Positions 41,649-58,598 of a DNA stretch of 64,000 nt are shown in pieces. Below the pieces are notes generated by a model. The model searched no databases. It was not told the DNA's origin and saw nothing but the letters and a program-made list of their open reading frames with translations. The first letter of the stretch is position 1. The number at the start of each line of letters is the position of its first letter. Source of the DNA: Halobacterium hubeiense. Its GTDB lineage: Archaea; Halobacteriota; Halobacteria; Halobacteriales; Halobacteriaceae. The stretch spans positions 62,001 to 126,000 of the forward strand of contig NZ_LN831303.1 in the NCBI RefSeq assembly GCF_001488575.1, written 5' to 3'. The position numbers and the translations under genes were made by a program.

Positions 41649-43043
41649 ATGGTACCTATGGTGGCGACGATGACTGATGGTATCTTCGAAGCTCTCCGCA
41701 TCGGTGTGGGCTTCCTCTGGACCGCGGCGTGGGCGATCATCATGGGCCTCACGATCACGAGCCTCGTCCAGGTGTACGTCTCCAAGGAGCGGATGGCGCA
41801 GGTGCTGGGCGACGGTGATTTGAGTGGGGTGGTCAAGGCGACTGCATTCGGCGCGGCCAGTAGTGGCTGCAGTTTCGGCGCTGTCGCCATCGGGAAGGGC
41901 TTGTTCAAGAAGGGGGCGCACGCGGTCAACTTTCTCGCGTTCATGTTCGCGTCGACGAACCTCATCGTCGAACTCGGGTTGATGATCCTGATTCTGCTCG
42001 GCTGGGAGTTCCTGGTCGCAGAGCTACTGGGCGGGCTCATTCTCATCGCCGTCATGTCCGTCATCGTCCACCTCACCCTCCCGGAGAATCTCTTCGACGA
42101 GGTCCGAGAGACGCTCAACGAGCGCGACCGCGAATCGGGCGTCACCGAGGATCCAACCTGCGGGATGGAAGGCAAAGACGAGTACACGCTTACGACCGAC
42201 GGCGGTGAGACGCTCAAATTCTGTTCGGAGGGCTGCATGGAGACGTATCTGCAGGAAACGTCGAGTCGCGGCGGGTGGCGCGAGGAGTTGCTGTCGTGGG
42301 GTGGCTGGTACAAGGTCGGGAACCAGTACCGCAAGGAGTGGTCGATGATCTGGAAGGACGTCATCGCCGGTTTCCTCATCTCGGGGTTCGTCATCGTCTT
42401 CGTCCCCCAGTGGGTGTGGAACACCCTGTTCATCCAGGGCGATGGACTGCTTGTGACCGCCGAGAACGCGATTATGGGTGTCGCCATCGCCGTTCTCAGT
42501 TTCGTCGGCAGCATGGGCAACGTCCCGTTTGCCGTCGCACTGTGGGGCGGCGGCATCAGCTTCGCTGGCGTCATCGCGTTCGTCTACGCCGACCTCATCA
42601 CGATCCCCGTGCTGAACGTCTACCGGAAGTACTACGGCTGGAAGGTCATGCTGTACATCCTCGGCGTCTTCTTCGTGACGATGGCGTTCACCGGCTTCCT
42701 CATGGAGCTGCTGTTCGACGCGTTCGGCATCGTCCCGGACCTGGCCGGCGGGGAGACGGCGACAGAGCAGACGTACTTCGAACTCAACTACACGTTCTAC
42801 CTCAACCTCATCGCCTTCGCGCTCTCCGGGTTCCTCCTGTACGTGTATCATCGCGGCCTCGGTGCGCCCGGCCAGTACCGGGACCCCGTCTGTGGGATGC
42901 GGACTGACGACAGCGAGCCAGCGGCGACCCACGACGGTGAGACGTACTACTTCTGCTCGCAGACCTGCGAGGAGACCTTCGAGGAGGACCCGGACGAATA
43001 CGCCACCGGGCATCCGATGGTGATGGAGGGACACGACCACTGA
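41649..43043 (+). CDS. DUF318-like permease with two YHS domains
   Basis: A 464-residue protein with two halves of a permease (AAWAIIMGLTITSLVQVYV, KATAFGAASSGCSFGAVAIGKGLFKKGAHAVNFLAF; then IWKDVIAGFLISGFVIVFV, FVGSMGNVPFAVALWGGGISFAGVIAFVYADLITIPVL). A YHS metal-binding domain lies between the halves (DPTCGMEGKDEYTL, FCSEGCMETYL) and another at the C-terminus (RDPVCGMRTDDSEP, FCSQTCEETFEEDP). YHS domains bind metals such as copper. The permease family handles unknown substrates. It is divergent from the SHOCT gene. Alternative ATGs at 41658 and 41670 are possible. Confidence 0.85.
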   Translation: MVPMVATMTDGIFEALRIGVGFLWTAAWAIIMGLTITSLVQVYVSKERMAQVLGDGDLSGVVKATAFGAASSGCSFGAVAIGKGLFKKGAHAVNFLAFMFASTNLIVELGLMILILLGWEFLVAELLGGLILIAVMSVIVHLTLPENLFDEVRETLNERDRESGVTEDPTCGMEGKDEYTLTTDGGETLKFCSEGCMETYLQETSSRGGWREELLSWGGWYKVGNQYRKEWSMIWKDVIAGFLISGFVIVFVPQWVWNTLFIQGDGLLVTAENAIMGVAIAVLSFVGSMGNVPFAVALWGGGISFAGVIAFVYADLITIPVLNVYRKYYGWKVMLYILGVFFVTMAFTGFLMELLFDAFGIVPDLAGGETATEQTYFELNYTFYLNLIAFALSGFLLYVYHRGLGAPGQYRDPVCGMRTDDSEPAATHDGETYYFCSQTCEETFEEDPDEYATGHPMVMEGHDH

Positions 43044-45663: not shown

Positions 45664-48590
45664 TCAGTCCGCTGTTGCCTTCCGCAGCGTCGTCTGGTCT
45701 GCTCGCGGTGCCGCCCCGAAGCGGTACTCCGTCGACGACGTCTCCAACCACCCATCCGTGAACAGCTTGCAATCCCAGCCGAGCAACGCCGCAGCTACGT
45801 TCATCCACGGCCGAATCCACGGCCACCGCTTCGCTGTCGCCTCTGCTTCCTCAGCACTCAGCCGGTAGTCCGTAACGAGATCCAACCACTCCTCGGTACT
45901 CGTCACGTCGATACCGAGCTCCATCAGTGGCCCCTCCAGGACCGCCAGAACCGCCTCCGACACCCGAGGGTCACGCTCCTGCAGGAGCGCCGAGGGCCGC
46001 AGCACCGACCCCTCGCCGGGGTACTCCTCGGGCTCCCGTTCCGGCACGTCATCGAAGCGTTCGCTCTTGAACGGCAGACAGAACCGCCACAGCGAAGCGC
46101 GACCCGCACCCTGCTCGGTGACATCGACGAGGCCGAACGCCTCCAGGACGCCCCGATTATCGCGAAGACTCTGCGTCGAGACGTCCGCCCGCTCCGCCAG
46201 CGTCGACGCCGACAGCGGCTCGTCGGCCTCCAGCAGCGCCGCGACCACTCGAGAGACCGTGTTCCCACCGACGTCGGGCAGGATTCGGTCCGCCGGCAGC
46301 CGGCCCAGCGCCGGCCGGAGCTCCGCGAGGTCTATCTCACGGCACTCGTCCTCGGCGCCGAGCCCCCAGATCGCCGCCGCGACGTCATGGACGCTCCCCA
46401 AGAGCGCGGCCAGCGTCGAAATCATGGCCCGTGTCCCTTCGAGATTCTTCCCGACACCGACCCGGTTCACCGCCGTTGCGATGGCTTCCCGCCGCCAGCC
46501 GTCCTCGACGACGACTGGGACCTCGAACGCCGCGAAGTTCTCGGCATCCGCTTGGAGGTCGTACTCCCGGCCGGCACAGCCTTCGAGGTCGGGACGCAAG
46601 TCGTCGGCGCCCGGCCCCGAGATGACCCACGACCCGATGTGTTCGCCCGTTTCGTCGCCTCTCGTGTCCGGCTGGCCGAGCGTGTTGTCGTTGCACCGCT
46701 TCTCGCTCCGCGGCTCGTAGAGGACGCGATACGCTGAATAGTGGCCGTAGCGCGCCGATTTCGGAATGGCCGATGAGAGGAATTTCACGAGGATGCGGCG
46801 GCGGTCGTGGACGTCGCGACGGTAGTTCTTGACGCGAATCTCGCGAACAATGTCGATGCCGAGGAGGTCGTAGAGCTGGGCGAGCGTTCCGAGCAGTCCA
46901 CTCGCCGGGCGACCTCGCTGGCGATGTCCGTCCGAAACTCCCCGTCCTCGCTGCGGAGATCGTCGAGCATCGCGAGCAGTGCCCGCCGCTCCTTGTGAAG
47001 TCGTTCCCGGAAGTCGTGGCCGTTCGCGTCCTCGTTCGCCAAGTAGCCGAGGCAGCGGCCCTTCCGTAGAATGTACGGATTCGACGTCACAAGGCCAGCT
47101 AAGTCCCCGCCAGCACCGTCAAGACGTTCCTGTGACAGTGCGGAATTCCAGGCATCTCCCTCGGTCAACGCGGCGCACAGCCGCACCGCCAGTACCGCCA
47201 CGTCGTCGGAGTAGTCCACCGAGACCGAAACCTCGTCGCGCTCCTCATCATACCGGGTTCGGCGGCCGCTCACGCTGTCTACCGGACGGTCACGGGTGAC
47301 GATATCCGCGCCATTCGTGACCGAGTGGAGCGCGGCGTGGCGATCAGGCCGCATCCGACCCTCCTTGCCGGGGCGGCCCGTCTCACGGCCGCTCTCGGCG
47401 ACCTCACGCCCCTCAGCCGCCACGTCCCGGCCCTCGGCGTCCCGGGGGCTGTCTTGCCCGCGTATGGGTACACGGCCCCCGCTGGAAGATTTGGGGGGTG
47501 CCGAACGGCCGGACAACGCCTCATCCGCACCGTCGCCACGGCGCACGCGTTCCTCGCGCGCGCCATCGGCGCCAGCAGCGTCAGTTGCCGTGCTGTGCGG
47601 CTTGGGTGTCTGCTCGGTGTGTTCGGTCTCCCAACCGCTCCCGGGAGTGGGTGGCTCCTCACCGCGCTCCTCGGCGTCCTCTTGGACAACAAGTAGACCA
47701 GCAGTCGTGAGACGATGATGGGCGACGCCCGCCCACTCTTGGCGGTCGACCACGCCGAGATCGCGGAGTCGCGAGAGGCGTGAGCGCCACGTCGCCCGTG
47801 GCGCGTCCTCGAGGAGCACGTGGCGGTCAAGTGCGTCGTACGTGAGCATCTGGTCGGCCGTCGTCGCTAGCGCCCGTAGCACAGCTAGCAGCGGCCCATC
47901 ACGGTCCAGCGCATCGAGGGCGTCGCGCGCGAGCTCGCGGTCGCCGGAGAGTGGCGTCCGGTCGCCGACGAGCGCGTGGTCGCACGCGTTGCCGGACGGC
48001 TGTGCGAGTTGCTGAACGCTGTCCGCGGGCAGCTTCCCGGCGTGGCTCCGGACGAGTCGGCGGGCTGCGATGGGCGAGACGACCACGCGGACGGCGCAGG
48101 CGGTTGCGAGCACTGGGAGGAACGACAGCCACCGACGTAATTGCGTACTCGTGACGCTGTCCAGCCAGTCAGCGTCGATGGTGAGGACGACGTCCGGAAC
48201 GACGTCGGCAGCTTGGAGTAACGCCAGCGGCCCGTCGCGCACGTCCTCAAGGGACGTGTCGACGCCGTAACCGCCGAGATTTCGAGTCTGCCGGCGAAAC
48301 TCTCGTTCCTTCTCTGCGCCACGCTTGTCACCAGCCGTTGCCGTGACGTACTGCACAGCGACATCTGCGAACTCTGGTGTCGTCGTCGCTCGCAGGGTTT
48401 CATTCAGCTCCCACGTGTCTGAGGCGTCCTCGACGAACGCCTGCAGCGCATCATCAAGGGCTGACCAGAAGGCCTCGGGGACGACGATGCGGCGCCAGAG
48501 CTCCGGGCGGGACACGGGTGGGTCTTCGAGTTCGACGTCCGCGGTGAGGGGGGCCTGTTGGCTCCACGTCAAGCCGGGTGTCTGGCTCAT
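45664..48590 (-). pseudogene. large double winged-helix protein gene split by a frameshift
   Basis: Two minus-strand frames form one gene of about 975 codons. The 5' frame begins at 48590 (MSQTPGLTWSQQAPL) and is acidic and coherent up to EVARRVDCS near 46,895; beyond that it turns into Ser/Thr/Ala-rich nonsense. In the other frame coherent coding starts at once (GLLGTLAQLYDLLGIDIVRE, then RRILVKFLSSAIPKSARYG) and runs to 45664. Two winged helices are visible (LTYDALDRHVLLEDAPRATWRSRL; ASTLAERADVSTQSLRDNRG). The start overlaps a small upstream frame by ATGA. The role is unknown; position suggests a plasmid/ICE maintenance or replication-linked protein. Confidence 0.7.
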
Positions 48591-48667
48591 CGGGCCACCT
48601 CCTTGGGGGCATCTTCGATGGTCCGGGACCAGCTGCACTCGGAGTAGCCGTTGACGTGGTCGGTCAT
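48587..48667 (-). CDS. 26-aa upstream frame coupled to the large gene
   Basis: MTDHVNGYSECSWSR ends EDAPKEVAR with a TGA that overlaps the large gene's ATG (ATGA). Such coupling suggests it is translated, perhaps as a leader peptide. Very short, so confidence is low. Confidence 0.35.
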   Translation of the reverse strand: MTDHVNGYSECSWSRTIEDAPKEVAR

Positions 48668-49054
48668 CGGCGGGCCTCCGGCTGGGGGGATGCAGGGCGT
48701 CTGGTCGTGGTGGGGCTGACTACGCATACGTTGGGCTACTGGGGCTTCAGTGCGTGTTACGCCGGAATCCAGCAGATACGCGTGGCTGGTGAAGGGGCGA
48801 AACGGTTTTACCAATTGCCCGCGAAAGAAGAACCGCGCATACGTGGTGGTTCTTCGGCACCACGACCCGCATCCCGCGAACGCGGTGGGACGCGTTCGTG
48901 GGCTTCAGGGTCGTGGTGTCACGGTAATTACTGTGTCCTAGCGTGGGGTATTGCTCACCTGATGGCGCGTTGTTTCCACCGGAGCGTAGTAAACGCTTGT
49001 CGGACACCCCGACTGCCCTCAGGTGGTTTCCTGACGGGTGTTCGATGTGGGTCG
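48668..49054. other. noncoding region with nested palindromes and a promoter
   Basis: Between the zinc-ribbon gene and the large gene. A TATA-like GGTAAAACC on the minus strand lies near 48807-48815, giving a leader of about 120 bases before the small upstream frame. The large palindrome (48842-48918) lies just upstream of that promoter. A 103-codon frame from 49058 overlaps the zinc-ribbon stop by ATGA but is not convincing. Confidence 0.45.
48842..48918. promoter_or_regulatory. nested palindrome with alternative pairings
   Basis: CACCACGACCC at 48858-48868 pairs perfectly with GGGTCGTGGTG at 48908-48918. Inside, CCCGCGAACGCG (48873-48884) pairs 11 of 12 with CGCGTTCGTGGG (48891-48902). A third copy, CGTGGTG at 48842-48848, can pair with CACCACG at 48858-48864 instead, so two exclusive hairpins are possible. 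It could be a protein operator, a replication or nicking site, or a structured RNA. Confidence 0.6.
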
Positions 49055-49951
49055 TCATGCGAAATCACCCAGCGTCGTTGAGCGGGCTGACGGGTCTGTT
49101 TCTGTGTCTTCTGGGGGTTGGCGTGGTTGGCAGTCCTTGCAGGGGCGTTTACCGTGGCGGTGTGCTTCGTCGAGGGTGTGCTCGGTGGCGTGTGGGATGA
49201 CTTCGGGGCAGGCGGGGATGCCGCCAGCATCGGCGTGGTAGACATCACCCGTTTGGCTGTACCAGACGGTTGTTGAACGGGTGGCGTGCTGGGGGCGTTC
49301 GTCGTTGGTTGGCGTGGGGTTCGTACACCGCTTGCACCGCGTGTACTTCTCGGAGAGCCGATCCTGTGTGGTTGGCCGGTAAACCGCAGCATCGCGGTAG
49401 GCGCTCGGGCAACGCGGCGCAACCGGATTCTCCGAGTCAGGATAGTGATAGATGTGCGTGTTACTCCGGTTCGTGCCGAGGCGGAGGACGTACGCGCTGG
49501 GGTCTGTGAGATCGATACCAGTGTAGGCTTCGATGACACGGCCACACCCCGGGCAGACCAAGTAGCCATCGGCGGTCGGCGTGAGATCTCGGCGGCGGCT
49601 GGTTAGTCCGCAGTCTTCGCACGTCCGCGTTGGCCGGCCACCGTCAGCAATCAGTCGGGTGGTCGTCGTCGAGTCGTCTCGTGAGTCGTGCTCGTTGGGT
49701 GGGTGTGCGGGGGGCTTGCGACGATGGGATGGGGTGGTCGTTTCGGGGTGGGGAGTGCTGTCGCTAGGCGTGTGGGAGTGCGGCGGCTGCATGGGGATCA
49801 CCGGGAGCTCCCCGAGCAGCGACGCTTCCCACGGTGTGCCGTTGACTCGCAGTTGGAGTGAAGAAGGCAGGCCGGTGGGCGTGTGCTCGCGTGGCTGGCA
49901 TTCTTGCTCGTCGCCTCGCGAGGGACATGGGTGCGTGTGCTGGGGTTGCAT
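49055..49951 (-). CDS. zinc-ribbon protein of a mobile element, 298 aa
   Basis: The N-terminal 90 residues are Pro/His/Ser-rich (PPHSHTPSDSTPHPETTTPS) and probably disordered. A treble-clef-like zinc ribbon follows (CEDCGLTSRRRDL, then CPGCGRVIEAY), with a further pair of CxxC-type motifs (YTRCKRCTNPTP, PCKDCQPRQP). Multiple zinc knots suggest nucleic-acid or protein binding. The start is uncertain: 49951, the ATG at 49792, or another frame from 49992 that overlaps the upstream stop. Part of the minus-strand 45.6-51.2 kb block. Confidence 0.65.
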   Translation of the reverse strand: MQPQHTHPCPSRGDEQECQPREHTPTGLPSSLQLRVNGTPWEASLLGELPVIPMQPPHSHTPSDSTPHPETTTPSHRRKPPAHPPNEHDSRDDSTTTTRLIADGGRPTRTCEDCGLTSRRRDLTPTADGYLVCPGCGRVIEAYTGIDLTDPSAYVLRLGTNRSNTHIYHYPDSENPVAPRCPSAYRDAAVYRPTTQDRLSEKYTRCKRCTNPTPTNDERPQHATRSTTVWYSQTGDVYHADAGGIPACPEVIPHATEHTLDEAHRHGKRPCKDCQPRQPPEDTETDPSARSTTLGDFA

Positions 49952-52890: not shown

Positions 52891-53805
52891 ATGTCTGATT
52901 CAACTACTGATCCGTGGGCTGAAAGCACACTGTTTGACCAAGAAGAACTGCTGGACCACGTTTTCGAAGTCGAAAGCTGGCAATTCCAGAGCTTAGAGGT
53001 CTCTACCTATTGCATCAAGCCCGGCATGGGAACGTTAGATGATGCGGCGTTTATCCAGTTCCTAGGGCGTAAATACCCATATTTCGTCTTTCCAGAAGAT
53101 GAGGTCGATGACTATGATTTCCCGTATCGAGAGGCTCAGCGTCGAGCGGACTTCGATGAAGATTCAAAATACGACGGAAAACTTGGCGAGTTAGTTCTCT
53201 TCGTACTCGTCGATGCTCTTCTTGATTTGCCGTTAGTCAGCCATAAAATCGGGCTGATGCAGGAGCCGGTACAAGATCAGAAAGGGGCAGACGCTCTGTT
53301 CTATGGCCTGTATGATGGAAATGAGGCCCTCGGTGTGGGGGAGGCAAAAATCTACACAAGGAAGAGTCAGGGTATCGACAGCGCCTTCGAGAGTACCGAT
53401 CGCTTCCACGGTGCTCAGGGTGACGCGAAAACACGCCATGAACTCCGTGTAGCTCGGAATAATCTGAGTGCAAATCTCGACGAAGATCAATTCAAACGCC
53501 TCTTAGACGTGTTTTCCCCTGGGAAAAGCCAGCATCTGCATGTCCATCCTATTTTCCTGGGATATCAAGCGGACTGGCTTACCGAGAAACAGAAGGAGTG
53601 TAACTCACCACAGGAGTTAGAAGAGGAGATCGTGACCGAAATAAAAGATTCAGAAATACAAAAAGATGTCCAAGAGTCTTTGTCAGAGGACTATCCCAAC
53701 CTTGAGAAGTACGAGACCGTCTTCATGCTATTCCCGCTAGAAGATGTTGACGAGTTCCGTGAACGGTTACAGGAAGAAATCTTCCCCCACAGCGTTAATC
53801 ACTAA
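52891..53805 (+). CDS. hamA: Hachiman nuclease subunit HamA (DUF1837)
   Basis: The 304-residue protein shows the DUF1837 core: KLGELVLFVLVDALLDLPLVS (about residues 97-117), then KGADALFYGLYDGNEALGVGEAKIY with Asp134, Glu151 and Lys153 as the D...E-x-K nuclease triad, and THELRVARNNL-like helices after it. HamA is the nuclease partner of the helicase HamB in the Hachiman antiphage system, where it cuts DNA when HamB finds damaged or unusual DNA. Its stop shares one base with the hamB start (TAATG). Codon use is much less GC-rich than the chromosome, a sign of transfer. Confidence 0.88.
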   Translation: MSDSTTDPWAESTLFDQEELLDHVFEVESWQFQSLEVSTYCIKPGMGTLDDAAFIQFLGRKYPYFVFPEDEVDDYDFPYREAQRRADFDEDSKYDGKLGELVLFVLVDALLDLPLVSHKIGLMQEPVQDQKGADALFYGLYDGNEALGVGEAKIYTRKSQGIDSAFESTDRFHGAQGDAKTRHELRVARNNLSANLDEDQFKRLLDVFSPGKSQHLHVHPIFLGYQADWLTEKQKECNSPQELEEEIVTEIKDSEIQKDVQESLSEDYPNLEKYETVFMLFPLEDVDEFRERLQEEIFPHSVNH

Positions 53806-56408
53806 TGGACACGTATTCAGTCGCTGCTGAGCTTGAATCGTTCAACCGCTGTCTGGACCAGATGGCGGAGAACCTCATAAGGGATGATCTGGGCGTAAGG
53901 GAGACGGGTGGTTTATCTAATTGGGGAAATCAGACGATATCCCCACATGGTGACCTAACCCAAGAAAATGTGGAGAAGAGTGCGTGGGTGGCGTCATTTC
54001 TAGCTTCTAGTGATGATTCAGAACATAAACGGAAGGCCCTCGCATTCGGTATTCTATCGTATCTACACTATAATGATACGGAATATGAGGAGATGTATGA
54101 GCGGTATCTGTATATCATCCTTTCTCGTGTTGGCAATCTTCCCGCGTTTAGAAACGTGAAGCGGTCCGAGAGTCGTGTAAATTTCAAAGCAGACCTCATT
54201 CATTCGTTAGACTCCGTTTTGGGAACAGAGCTCGGCACCAATTCCAGTCGGTACAGCCTTGAGAATGGAGATGTTCTCTCCGAATTTCAGAAGGAAATCT
54301 ATGAGCATCTCCTTGCGGGAAGAAACGTGGCTATCTCAGGACCAACATCGGCAGGTAAATCCTTCATATTGCGGAGGTATATTGAGGAAATGGCGAGACA
54401 GCCTGGTAACTTTGAAGTCATCTATGTTGTTCCAACAAGGGCTTTAATTTCTGAGGTTAGTCAGAAACTCACGGATTTGAACGACTCGCTGGATAGTCCC
54501 GAAAACGAGTTTGATGTCCTCACAGGCGCACACTTCCCGGAGGATGAGGATAGATCAGATAACTCCTTCCTGGTGGTGACCCCGGAGAGATGCCTGAAGC
54601 TAATTGACCCGGATGTTCGGAAAGAGATTGACCCTAATCTGGTCTTCTTCGATGAAGTTCAAAATATAGAGGACGACGAACGAGGTGTCCTATTCGAGAA
54701 TATTGTTCGCTCGCTTGAAGACTACTATTCCTCAGCTCAAGTTGTCGCTGCTGGTCCTTATCTTGAGAATCCGCAGGAGACACTTGAAGATTTAACCAGT
54801 AACGAGGTTGCGGAGGTGAAGACAGGATTCACTCCCGTTCTGCAAATGAGGTGCGTGTTGAGGTTTATCAGCCAGAATCGGTCAAAGAATCGGAAGCTGG
54901 AAGTTAGAATACATAGCCCCTCTGGAAATATAGAGGAAATTGAGGTCCCCGAACCTGAGTCAATGACTTACTCTGAGGTCAAGGGGAATAAGAAGAAATC
55001 CTTGCGCAAAATCGTTCGCCGATTTGGATCGGACTCAAAGAATCTGGTCTATTCAAGCAGGAAGGACTATGCTGAGGATAGAGCGAAATATATCGCTCAA
55101 GATAAAGAAAAGCAGACCTCTTCTGAGGAACTTGATGACTTAATCAATTTCCTAGAAGAGACGATCCATGAAGACTACTCTCTCATCGACTGTCTGCAAC
55201 GAGGCGTAGCGTTTCACCACGGGATGGTCCCCAAGATTGCGCGAGAAAAAATTGAAGAGATATACAGTAATCAAGCAGTCATCGATACCATAGTTACAAC
55301 TCCAACACTAATGCAGGGTGTCAATTTACCTGCGGAGAAAATTTTCTTGGTAAGCTCAAACCGGGGTCAGAATGAACTGAGCGACTTTGAATTCGGGAAC
55401 CTCATCGGTCGAGTAGGACGGATTGACACTAAACTCTACGGGGCGATCTACTGTATCGAGGGTGAAGATGAAGAGTGGGCAGACAATAAGCTCGAGAATA
55501 CTGGTGACAAGGCGGTTGAGCCTGCGACAAATCAGGCTGTGGATGATTCAGATGAACTTATTAATGCCTTACAGCAGGAAGATCTGGGCTCGGTTGAAGA
55601 GCCCTCTGTCAAGTACACCTCCGTCCTTCTTCGTGGAAGATATCTAAAAGACCAGGAAATCAGTTCATATCTATCTAACAAGGGAATGGAGGAGGGTGAG
55701 ATTGAACGGGTTAATAGCGCCCTAGAGCGAACACTATCGGATATTGAAATCCCTAACTCGCTATTACGCAAGAACCCGACTGTTGACCCAATAAAGCAGG
55801 ATATCCTATTTAATGTGGTACAGTCCAACCCCGAACAGTGGATTATCGGAACTAACTCTCGCGACTTTTCTTACTCTTCCTTTTTGAGGATTACGAGGCA
55901 GCTAAACAAGATTTTCAAGTTCACTAACGACGACGTAGCTGGCGTTGATCCAGAGCACGTCGAGACAGACTATGGGGCTCTTGAACCAATTGTAGTTACT
56001 GCGAATCACTGGCTTAGAGGAGATACCTATCACGCAATGATTGAGAGCCGTAGAGATGCTGAGAACGTGAATGATGGGAGCCTTGATAAGTCTATCCGGA
56101 ATGTTTTGGAACTTGTCAACACAGATATTCGGTTTGTATTAGTGAAGTACTACGGTATTCTCACGACTATCTTAGAGTATCTGGATTACGAGACCCCGGA
56201 ATGGATGTTGAACTTTGATCAGATGTTGGAGATGGGATCTATGGAATTCAACCGTATCCACTTGATGTCTCGTGGAGTGGATCGTTCAATTGCCGTCGCT
56301 CTTTACTTGCCACAGAGTGTTGACGACCCGGTTGCGTACCTAAACGAGAATAGTGGCCGGATTGTTCCCTTCCATAGGAGCCACTTGGAGAATCAGGGGA
56401 TTTTATGA
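53805..56408 (+). CDS. hamB: Hachiman helicase subunit HamB (SF2)
   Basis: An 867-residue superfamily 2 helicase. Walker A is GPTSAGKSFILRRYIEE (residues 179-195), Walker B is FFDEVQNIEDDE (DEVQ at 283-286), TPTLMQGVNLPAEKIFLVS and EFGNLIGRVGRID are later helicase motifs. An N-terminal region of about 160 residues and a long C-terminal part have no named domain. It is translated with hamA from overlapping codons, the standard Hachiman arrangement. HamB probably translocates on DNA and holds HamA inactive until it meets a target. Confidence 0.88.
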   Translation: MDTYSVAAELESFNRCLDQMAENLIRDDLGVRETGGLSNWGNQTISPHGDLTQENVEKSAWVASFLASSDDSEHKRKALAFGILSYLHYNDTEYEEMYERYLYIILSRVGNLPAFRNVKRSESRVNFKADLIHSLDSVLGTELGTNSSRYSLENGDVLSEFQKEIYEHLLAGRNVAISGPTSAGKSFILRRYIEEMARQPGNFEVIYVVPTRALISEVSQKLTDLNDSLDSPENEFDVLTGAHFPEDEDRSDNSFLVVTPERCLKLIDPDVRKEIDPNLVFFDEVQNIEDDERGVLFENIVRSLEDYYSSAQVVAAGPYLENPQETLEDLTSNEVAEVKTGFTPVLQMRCVLRFISQNRSKNRKLEVRIHSPSGNIEEIEVPEPESMTYSEVKGNKKKSLRKIVRRFGSDSKNLVYSSRKDYAEDRAKYIAQDKEKQTSSEELDDLINFLEETIHEDYSLIDCLQRGVAFHHGMVPKIAREKIEEIYSNQAVIDTIVTTPTLMQGVNLPAEKIFLVSSNRGQNELSDFEFGNLIGRVGRIDTKLYGAIYCIEGEDEEWADNKLENTGDKAVEPATNQAVDDSDELINALQQEDLGSVEEPSVKYTSVLLRGRYLKDQEISSYLSNKGMEEGEIERVNSALERTLSDIEIPNSLLRKNPTVDPIKQDILFNVVQSNPEQWIIGTNSRDFSYSSFLRITRQLNKIFKFTNDDVAGVDPEHVETDYGALEPIVVTANHWLRGDTYHAMIESRRDAENVNDGSLDKSIRNVLELVNTDIRFVLVKYYGILTTILEYLDYETPEWMLNFDQMLEMGSMEFNRIHLMSRGVDRSIAVALYLPQSVDDPVAYLNENSGRIVPFHRSHLENQGIL

Positions 56409-57233: not shown

Positions 57234-58598
57234 ATGGACGTAGAGCGTCTACTCGAGGAGGGGAACATCGAGACCTCGACCGTCGAGATCAAGCACGAGA
57301 ACGTCGACAACGAGAAGATCGTGAAAGAGATCGTGGCGTTCTCGAACAAGGGTAGTGGATCTGTTCTAGTTGGAATCGCAGAGGGAGATGATGGCCCCGT
57401 TGTAACCGGTGTGACGGACCTCCAGAAACTTGAGGAAGAAGTTAGTCAAACGTTGAGCCGCCACGTTTCGCCACGTCTTGAGCCTGAAATCGAAGTCCAC
57501 CACATCGATGGAGGGGACGTAGTCGAGTTTCAAGCACGTGGCGATTCCGCCGTTCGGAGCTTCGGCATCGACCCGCCACGGTTCCCCATCCGTCAAGGCT
57601 CTACGACGACGTATCTCGATGGAAGCGACCTCAGGCATCGGTACAGCACTTACTCGGAAGAGCAACCTACCGAAGATTCCCAGACCGAGGCAGACTCTGA
57701 AGTAGAGTTCAAGCAACTCCCATCGAAGCAGCACTGGCACGACCACGGCCCACACTACATCCCGAAGCCCGATGGCCACATCGCTCACCTCTGCACCTTC
57801 GGGGAAATGTATGTTCCCCGCGATCCGGTGCGCGTAACCGCGTCAGGACATCGACCGGATTTCCAGACTCTCGAACACAACCTTTCCTATCTGGCCGATA
57901 CATTCGCCCTTCAGGACATCCAGGGCCACTTTACAATCAACCAGGAGAACGGAGCATGGATTGGGGCCGGTCTCTCAAACTTCCTTGACGCAATCAAATC
58001 ACAACAGTAGCGGTATGAGGCGGCGGATCTTCACCCCAAGAATCTCTACAAGTGCGAGGAAGCGGTCTTCGTTGCGAATCCTGACCTCCCATATTCGGAG
58101 TCGTTACTCGTGATATACGCTGAGCCGTGGGTCTCGAACGACTTCTGTAGGCACTTCAAAGTCGTGCTGTTGACCAATGGATATCCAATCGACACCCGCC
58201 CACTCAACGAACTTGGCGACGAATCCAACCTGAACTTCGGCACAGCGGAGTCGATAACGGTGTCGAGTACCGGACTTGCTCGTCCCGAGAGGATGCCTGT
58301 GCAGCCTGTTGAGCAGGTCCAAGGACAAACGTCAGATCCTGTGAGCGAGGGAAACGAGATTATTGGATACCTCCTCGAAAATCCGTTCGAGGGCGATGAA
58401 GAGGCGATTTCGAGACACTTGGACTCGAGCGTTTCGACTCCGCTCTCTGAATTTTCGCACCTCTACGGGCACTTTCTACAGCTCCCGCCTGCGGACTTTG
58501 ACAAGCCTGAGCCGGCTCACTTCCAAGTTTACGACTACGACGAGTTCGCCAATATTCCCCTCGATGCAGTCCACGTAGACTTCCAGCTGGATTGGTAA
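57234..58598 (+). pseudogene. AlbA/Schlafen-type gene with an in-frame TAG
   Basis: The first 258 codons contain an AlbA_2/Schlafen domain: TVEIKHENVDNEKIVKEIVAFSNKGSGSVLVGIAEGDDGPVV (residues about 17-60), the fold of many defence-linked ATP-dependent proteins. After TAG (58008-58010) the same frame continues with good coding sense (RYEAADLHPKNLYKCEEAV, then LLVIYAEPWVSNDF) to 58598, about 195 more codons. One stop therefore splits a gene of about 454 codons; it is a nonsense mutation or, less likely, a read-through. A later ATG at 58110 could restart only the tail. Confidence 0.7.

Follow-up and report, generated by a model that had tools for sequence, protein, structure and literature searches.

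A nested palindrome in front of repH

The window analyzed here, a stretch of 64,000 nucleotides from Halobacterium hubeiense (contig NZ_LN831303.1), carries on its minus strand a RepH-family replication gene that is split between two frames. The N-terminal part occupies 46785–48590 and loses its frame near 46901, and the C-terminal part, which has a helix-turn-helix match, lies in another frame at 45664–46788. The frameshift corresponds to a 4-base difference from an intact 977-codon gene on a 54-kb plasmid of Halobacterium noricense. The protein has homologues on named haloarchaeal plasmids, where they are annotated as RepH or replication protein H, the intact H. noricense orthologue matches a replication-protein PHROG (7.9e-106), and RepH relatives are present in 70 of the 293 Halobacteriales genomes searched. 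Elsewhere on the 349.5-kb contig that holds the window are two Orc1/Cdc6 genes, and thus the contig need not depend on RepH. Since repH is frameshifted in this genome, its control region may be out of use here. The window also encodes an ArsP-type permease fused to YHS domains (41649–43043), a Hachiman-type defence system of HamA and HamB genes (52891–56408) and, adjacent to these defence genes, a protein with a Schlafen AlbA_2 domain (57234–58010).

A nested palindrome (48858–48918) is firmly placed at repH, 268 bp upstream of the start codon. Its outer stem pairs CACCACGACCC (48858–48868) with GGGTCGTGGTG (48908–48918) over 11 perfect base pairs, and its inner stem pairs CCCGCGAACGCG (48873–48884) with CGCGTTCGTGGG (48891–48902) through 11 Watson-Crick pairs and one exception, a G.T when read on the plus strand and a mismatched A.C when read on the minus strand. 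An earlier sequence-only reading of this DNA had described an 11-base perfect outer stem and a 12-base inner stem, and both are confirmed, the latter with its one G.T pair. The same reading took the two for mutually exclusive hairpins. The stems are instead nested and form jointly in both the MFE and the centroid predictions, from which a 7-bp alternative pairing is absent. A third copy of CGTGGTG, claimed to compete for pairing, is indeed present at 48842–48848 and can pair with 48858–48864, but the predictions show no stem displaced by it, and H. noricense does not conserve it. A role as a switching RNA is possible, although its basis is weakened because the copy on which it was said to rest is unconserved.

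Perfect stems of 11–12 bp are common in the G+C-rich window, which contains 11 stems of at least 11 bp (loops up to 80), so the unusual feature is the nesting of the stems rather than their length. To count as nested, a perfect stem of 11 bp spanning no more than 61 bp had to enclose a perfect inner stem of at least 8 bp. None of 4000 dinucleotide-shuffled versions of the region 48590–49055 (466 bp) contains such an arrangement, and 4 of 636 overlapping tiles of the window do. The lowest MFE in the 64 kb belongs to the 100-nt stretch from 48826 (100-nt stretches sampled every 25 nt). Folded alone as RNA, the nested palindrome reaches −53.8 kcal/mol (z −5.7) on the plus strand and −43.6 kcal/mol (z −4.5) on the minus strand. 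The element has no match among 4227 Rfam models.

Several further parts adjoin the palindrome. A side hairpin (48827–48855) with the 8-bp stem GAAGAACC/GGTTCTTC contains the CGTGGTG copy. On the other flank, preceding the palindrome in the rep-sense direction, lies a box, AGGACACAGTAATTACCG (48922–48939, minus strand), that is common to the repH region of pNRC100, where it reads AGGACAGAGTAATCACTG. On the repH-sense strand, a closing stem of 48919–48924 with 48819–48824, CCG(U/C)GA with UCGCGG, is predicted to enclose both hairpins in a three-way junction (48819–48924). Another copy of the outer arm, GGTCGTGGTG at 48703–48712, is identical in H. noricense and could be a competitor for pairing. 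Nearest to the gene is a 26-codon open frame (48587–48667, minus strand), ending in a stop codon that overlaps the start of RepH (ATGA). A putative repH leader would span 48590–48963 on the minus strand, as similarity to H. noricense begins at ~48963 and continues into repH.

The earlier reading had placed the palindrome a short way upstream of the large gene's promoter. A putative repH promoter would instead lie across the palindrome, at about 48991–48996, where the TATA match is weak (two mismatches to YTTAWA). Neither strand of 48590–49055 has a TATA that comes within a single mismatch of YTTAWA.

Conservation and folding upstream of RepH genes

Within the sequences searched, the palindrome has one true orthologue, that of H. 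noricense, and the element is present in 2 of the 26 genomes of the family; in most of the RepH family, this exact element cannot be recognised. The window and the H. noricense plasmid share ~93% identity over a joined block from ~48963, where similarity ends abruptly, into repH, and the box, the palindrome and the side hairpin are all kept. In the side hairpin, the 8-bp stem is retained in H. noricense (GGAGAAGC/GCTTCTCC) via two compensatory pairs together with a 3-base loop change. In the closing stem, one U.G pair in the window is C-G in H. noricense. The consensus fold, a comparison of these two sequences only, is the three-way junction with 36 pairs, including 2 double-side and 1 single-side changes. 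Between the two, the nested palindrome differs at a single stem position, which becomes a plus-strand G.U pair, and double compensatory changes are absent from it. Conservation of pairing in relatives had been named as a check: the pairing is kept and two compensatory pairs support it in the adjacent hairpin, but not in the palindrome itself. The 26-codon frame stays open in H. noricense with 13 of its 26 codons changed, so its peptide is not conserved.

The box matches at 15 of 15 fixed positions in the rep sense in the window, H. noricense, pNRC100 and three pNRC100-like regions, and at 14 of 15 in one further region (L028), the sole independent match. Among 86 repH-upstream regions there are seven full rep-sense matches, counting a chance match in other sequence (G011) that was included on purpose, and the best opposite-strand score is 11/15. 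A search with the box pattern found it in 6 of 392 genomes, with 0 for the reversed control. Five of the six precede RepH on the same strand, two of them being the window and pNRC100, from which the pattern was derived, and the other three close pNRC100 relatives (RepH N-terminus 88–100%); the sixth, G011, has no RepH within the 6 kb examined. By our own estimate, a blind box match between the window and pNRC100 is about at chance level, and the weight rests on the position before palindromes and on L028.

Across the family, the most negative folding z falls upstream of repH at 12 of 34 loci, where 5.0 would be expected (p 1.2e-4). The longest inverted repeat hardly separates this region, being strictly the best block at 5 of 34 loci against 4.2 expected (p 0.037), and was rejected as a family-wide signal for having nearly no effect. 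Both counts cover 34 of 41 loci, after six duplicates or near duplicates and one locus with less than 430 bp upstream were dropped. A GTCNGAC operator spotted by eye was likewise discarded (53 occurrences against 47–74 in shuffles). Coupled leader frames, with a stop overlapping the start codon, occur at 12 of 36 loci; they were given little weight because G+C-rich DNA readily yields long open frames and an A often follows the start. Two Haloarcula-type repH upstream regions (L019 and L021) are nearly identical except that the central hairpin carries its inner loop in opposite orientations, as if the palindrome permitted inversion of its loop.

A second, unrelated nested hairpin linked to repH is found in pHV2 and eight other genomes. 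By similarity it was detected in 9 of 392 genomes, with RepH within the 1.5-kb flanks at 6 of the 9 loci. Over the nine sequences, 14 tested pairs are 94.4% paired, and 4 pairs are changed on both sides in 9 cells; the covariation score is 0.238 against 0.075 when shuffled, and 0 of 500 shuffles reach 0.238. A coding explanation was rejected, as a one-base insertion in one genome (G230) breaks the frame. The covariance model built on this hairpin matches 19 of 392 genomes at E 0.01, with 10 scoring at least 38 bits. The matches examined were two new ones, G179 and G170, and one weak one: in G179, RepH shares strand and contig with the hairpin, and G170 has no RepH in the locus. A loop stretch of this hairpin (771–828 in L053 and similar loci) is invariant in seven genomes, and G179 and G170 have a different loop. 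The model gives no credible match in the window or its own genome, and thus the pHV2-type hairpin is a parallel and not the same element. Additional scans for relatives yielded none, apart from one locus that was used only in the covariance-model search. In the phage phiH record, the 5' end of transcript T4', 117 nt before repH, is annotated as an RNA cleavage product, and this end falls inside a predicted hairpin.

A candidate replication-control region and its rivals

A position in regulation or replication control is supported, as the palindrome occupies the interval ahead of a RepH-family gene, is conserved with H. noricense and adjoins the box common to pNRC100. Our preferred reading, held tentatively and at somewhat less than even chances, is that the palindrome forms the centre of a structured leader or control region of a RepH-type replicon, acting mainly as RNA and limiting RepH synthesis. 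It draws on the placement at repH, the conservation of the block, the compensatory changes next to the palindrome and the covarying hairpins linked to repH elsewhere. Transcription of the region together with repH, action at the RNA level and control of RepH synthesis are what we infer from these. The palindrome would sit in the 5' leader of the repH mRNA (minus strand), where the box, the nested hairpin and the side hairpin may fold into the three-way junction, and this fold would limit or time RepH synthesis and hence copy number. Since comparable folded regions precede repH in several haloarchaeal plasmids and viruses, the element probably helps set how often the plasmid is copied. Against this reading, the palindrome has a single orthologue and no double compensatory change of its own.

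The strand evidence is mixed. All non-Watson-Crick pairs of the nested palindrome in the window and H. noricense are G.U on the plus strand, which together with the A.C on the repH-sense strand and the more stable plus-strand fold points away from the mRNA sense. The changed pair of the closing stem favours the repH sense. Over all scored stems (36 of 41 loci), G.T and A.C pairs number 12 and 15 in the rep sense; with no family-wide bias, this test favours neither strand and was set aside.

Because of this mixed picture, a site acting at the DNA level stays a serious rival, even if a somewhat unlikely one. The palindromes would then be duplex binding sites or extruded cruciforms for RepH or a winged-helix regulator, at an origin or an operator. 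PadR and HVO_A0261-type proteins are encoded nearby. The lack of a family-wide preference for G.T over A.C fits such a site, as does the DNA folding z of about −5 on both strands, by which the stems are equally marked as DNA. An imperfect dyad inside the box, CACGGTAATTACTGTG (48920–48935), would also suit protein binding, and according to PMC1906834 the replication of pNRC100 requires repH and sequence 5' of it. However, binding sites of a single protein would be expected to resemble one another in sequence, whereas the hairpins of different RepH lineages differ in sequence and no k-mer in the repH upstream regions rises above shuffles (68 of 85 regions after removal of similar ones).

Returning to the structured leader, a broader form of it is rather unlikely: that haloarchaeal RepH replicons share a replication-control RNA, in which a leader made of the box and a nested hairpin sets RepH synthesis and copy number. 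An antisense RNA or the extra arm copies might act as the switch for its fold. Such an RNA would combine fast sequence turnover between replicons with a stable architecture, like copy-control and incompatibility RNAs.

An antisense RNA is an unlikely alternative. A short plus-strand transcript from ~48830 that contains the hairpins would pair with the repH leader and restrain copy number, in the manner of the countertranscribed RNAs of plasmids. The plus-strand G.U pairs and the better folding of that strand are what this possibility would predict, and a conserved GCGAAACGGTTTTACC-like sequence upstream on the plus strand (48797–48812) may be its promoter. This sequence, however, is more than one mismatch from YTTAWA and is absent at pHV2-type elements, and the changed closing pair, U.G to C-G, is on the repH-sense strand.

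It is very improbable that the palindrome is a chance feature or a relic, a strong but functionless structure carried along with a decaying repH replicon. The frameshift in repH, the two Orc1/Cdc6 genes on the contig and the single orthologue would agree with decay, but the shuffles never produced the nesting, the compensatory pairs are adjacent and the element is conserved with a plasmid whose repH is intact. A nicking site for a rolling-circle initiator of the HUH type, one of the roles first suggested, was rejected, as five aligned RepH proteins share no invariant histidine and a Pfam search of RepH returned no HUH family.

Comparison with known replicons

In the literature searched, which covered few subscription journals, we found no description of the repH hairpins, nor one of copy number or incompatibility control for RepH replicons (pNRC100, pHV2, phiH and others). 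The folded region linked to repH and the shared box give a defined stretch to mutate in plasmids with existing genetics, and with such a control region the copy control of archaeal plasmids could be tested directly.

Among the closest known systems are the repH regions of the Halobacterium salinarum plasmids pNRC100, pNRC200 and pHH1, which share with the window the orientation of the RepH-family gene, the box and a long gap (~470 nt) before repH. The box of pNRC100 is directly followed by a nested palindrome with stems of 10 and 8 bp. Unlike the window, pNRC100 has a distantly related RepH, unrelated hairpin sequences and an AT-rich stretch further upstream. Published accounts of this upstream region disagree: it tolerates interruption and partial deletion according to PMC1447603, and mutating or deleting the AT-rich sequence abolished replication according to PMC1906834.

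The Haloferax volcanii plasmid pHV2 resembles the window in having a nested hairpin shortly upstream of a RepH homologue, with pairing kept by covariation, but this hairpin differs in sequence and length and its model does not recognise the window. In phiH and phiCh1, hairpins likewise stand immediately before repH, with the annotated cleaved RNA end of phiH located there; unlike in the window, these hairpins lie within or beside an upstream gene and there is no box.

Among bacterial plasmids, the copy-control leaders of R1 (copA/tap-repA) and ColIb-P9 (inc/repY-repZ) combine a structured rep leader with a short coupled frame and extra complementary copies of the hairpin arms. Their replication proteins are different, and an antisense RNA, a pseudoknot and coupling would be hypothetical in the window. 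The likeness lies in the structured leader, the short frame and the extra arm copies.
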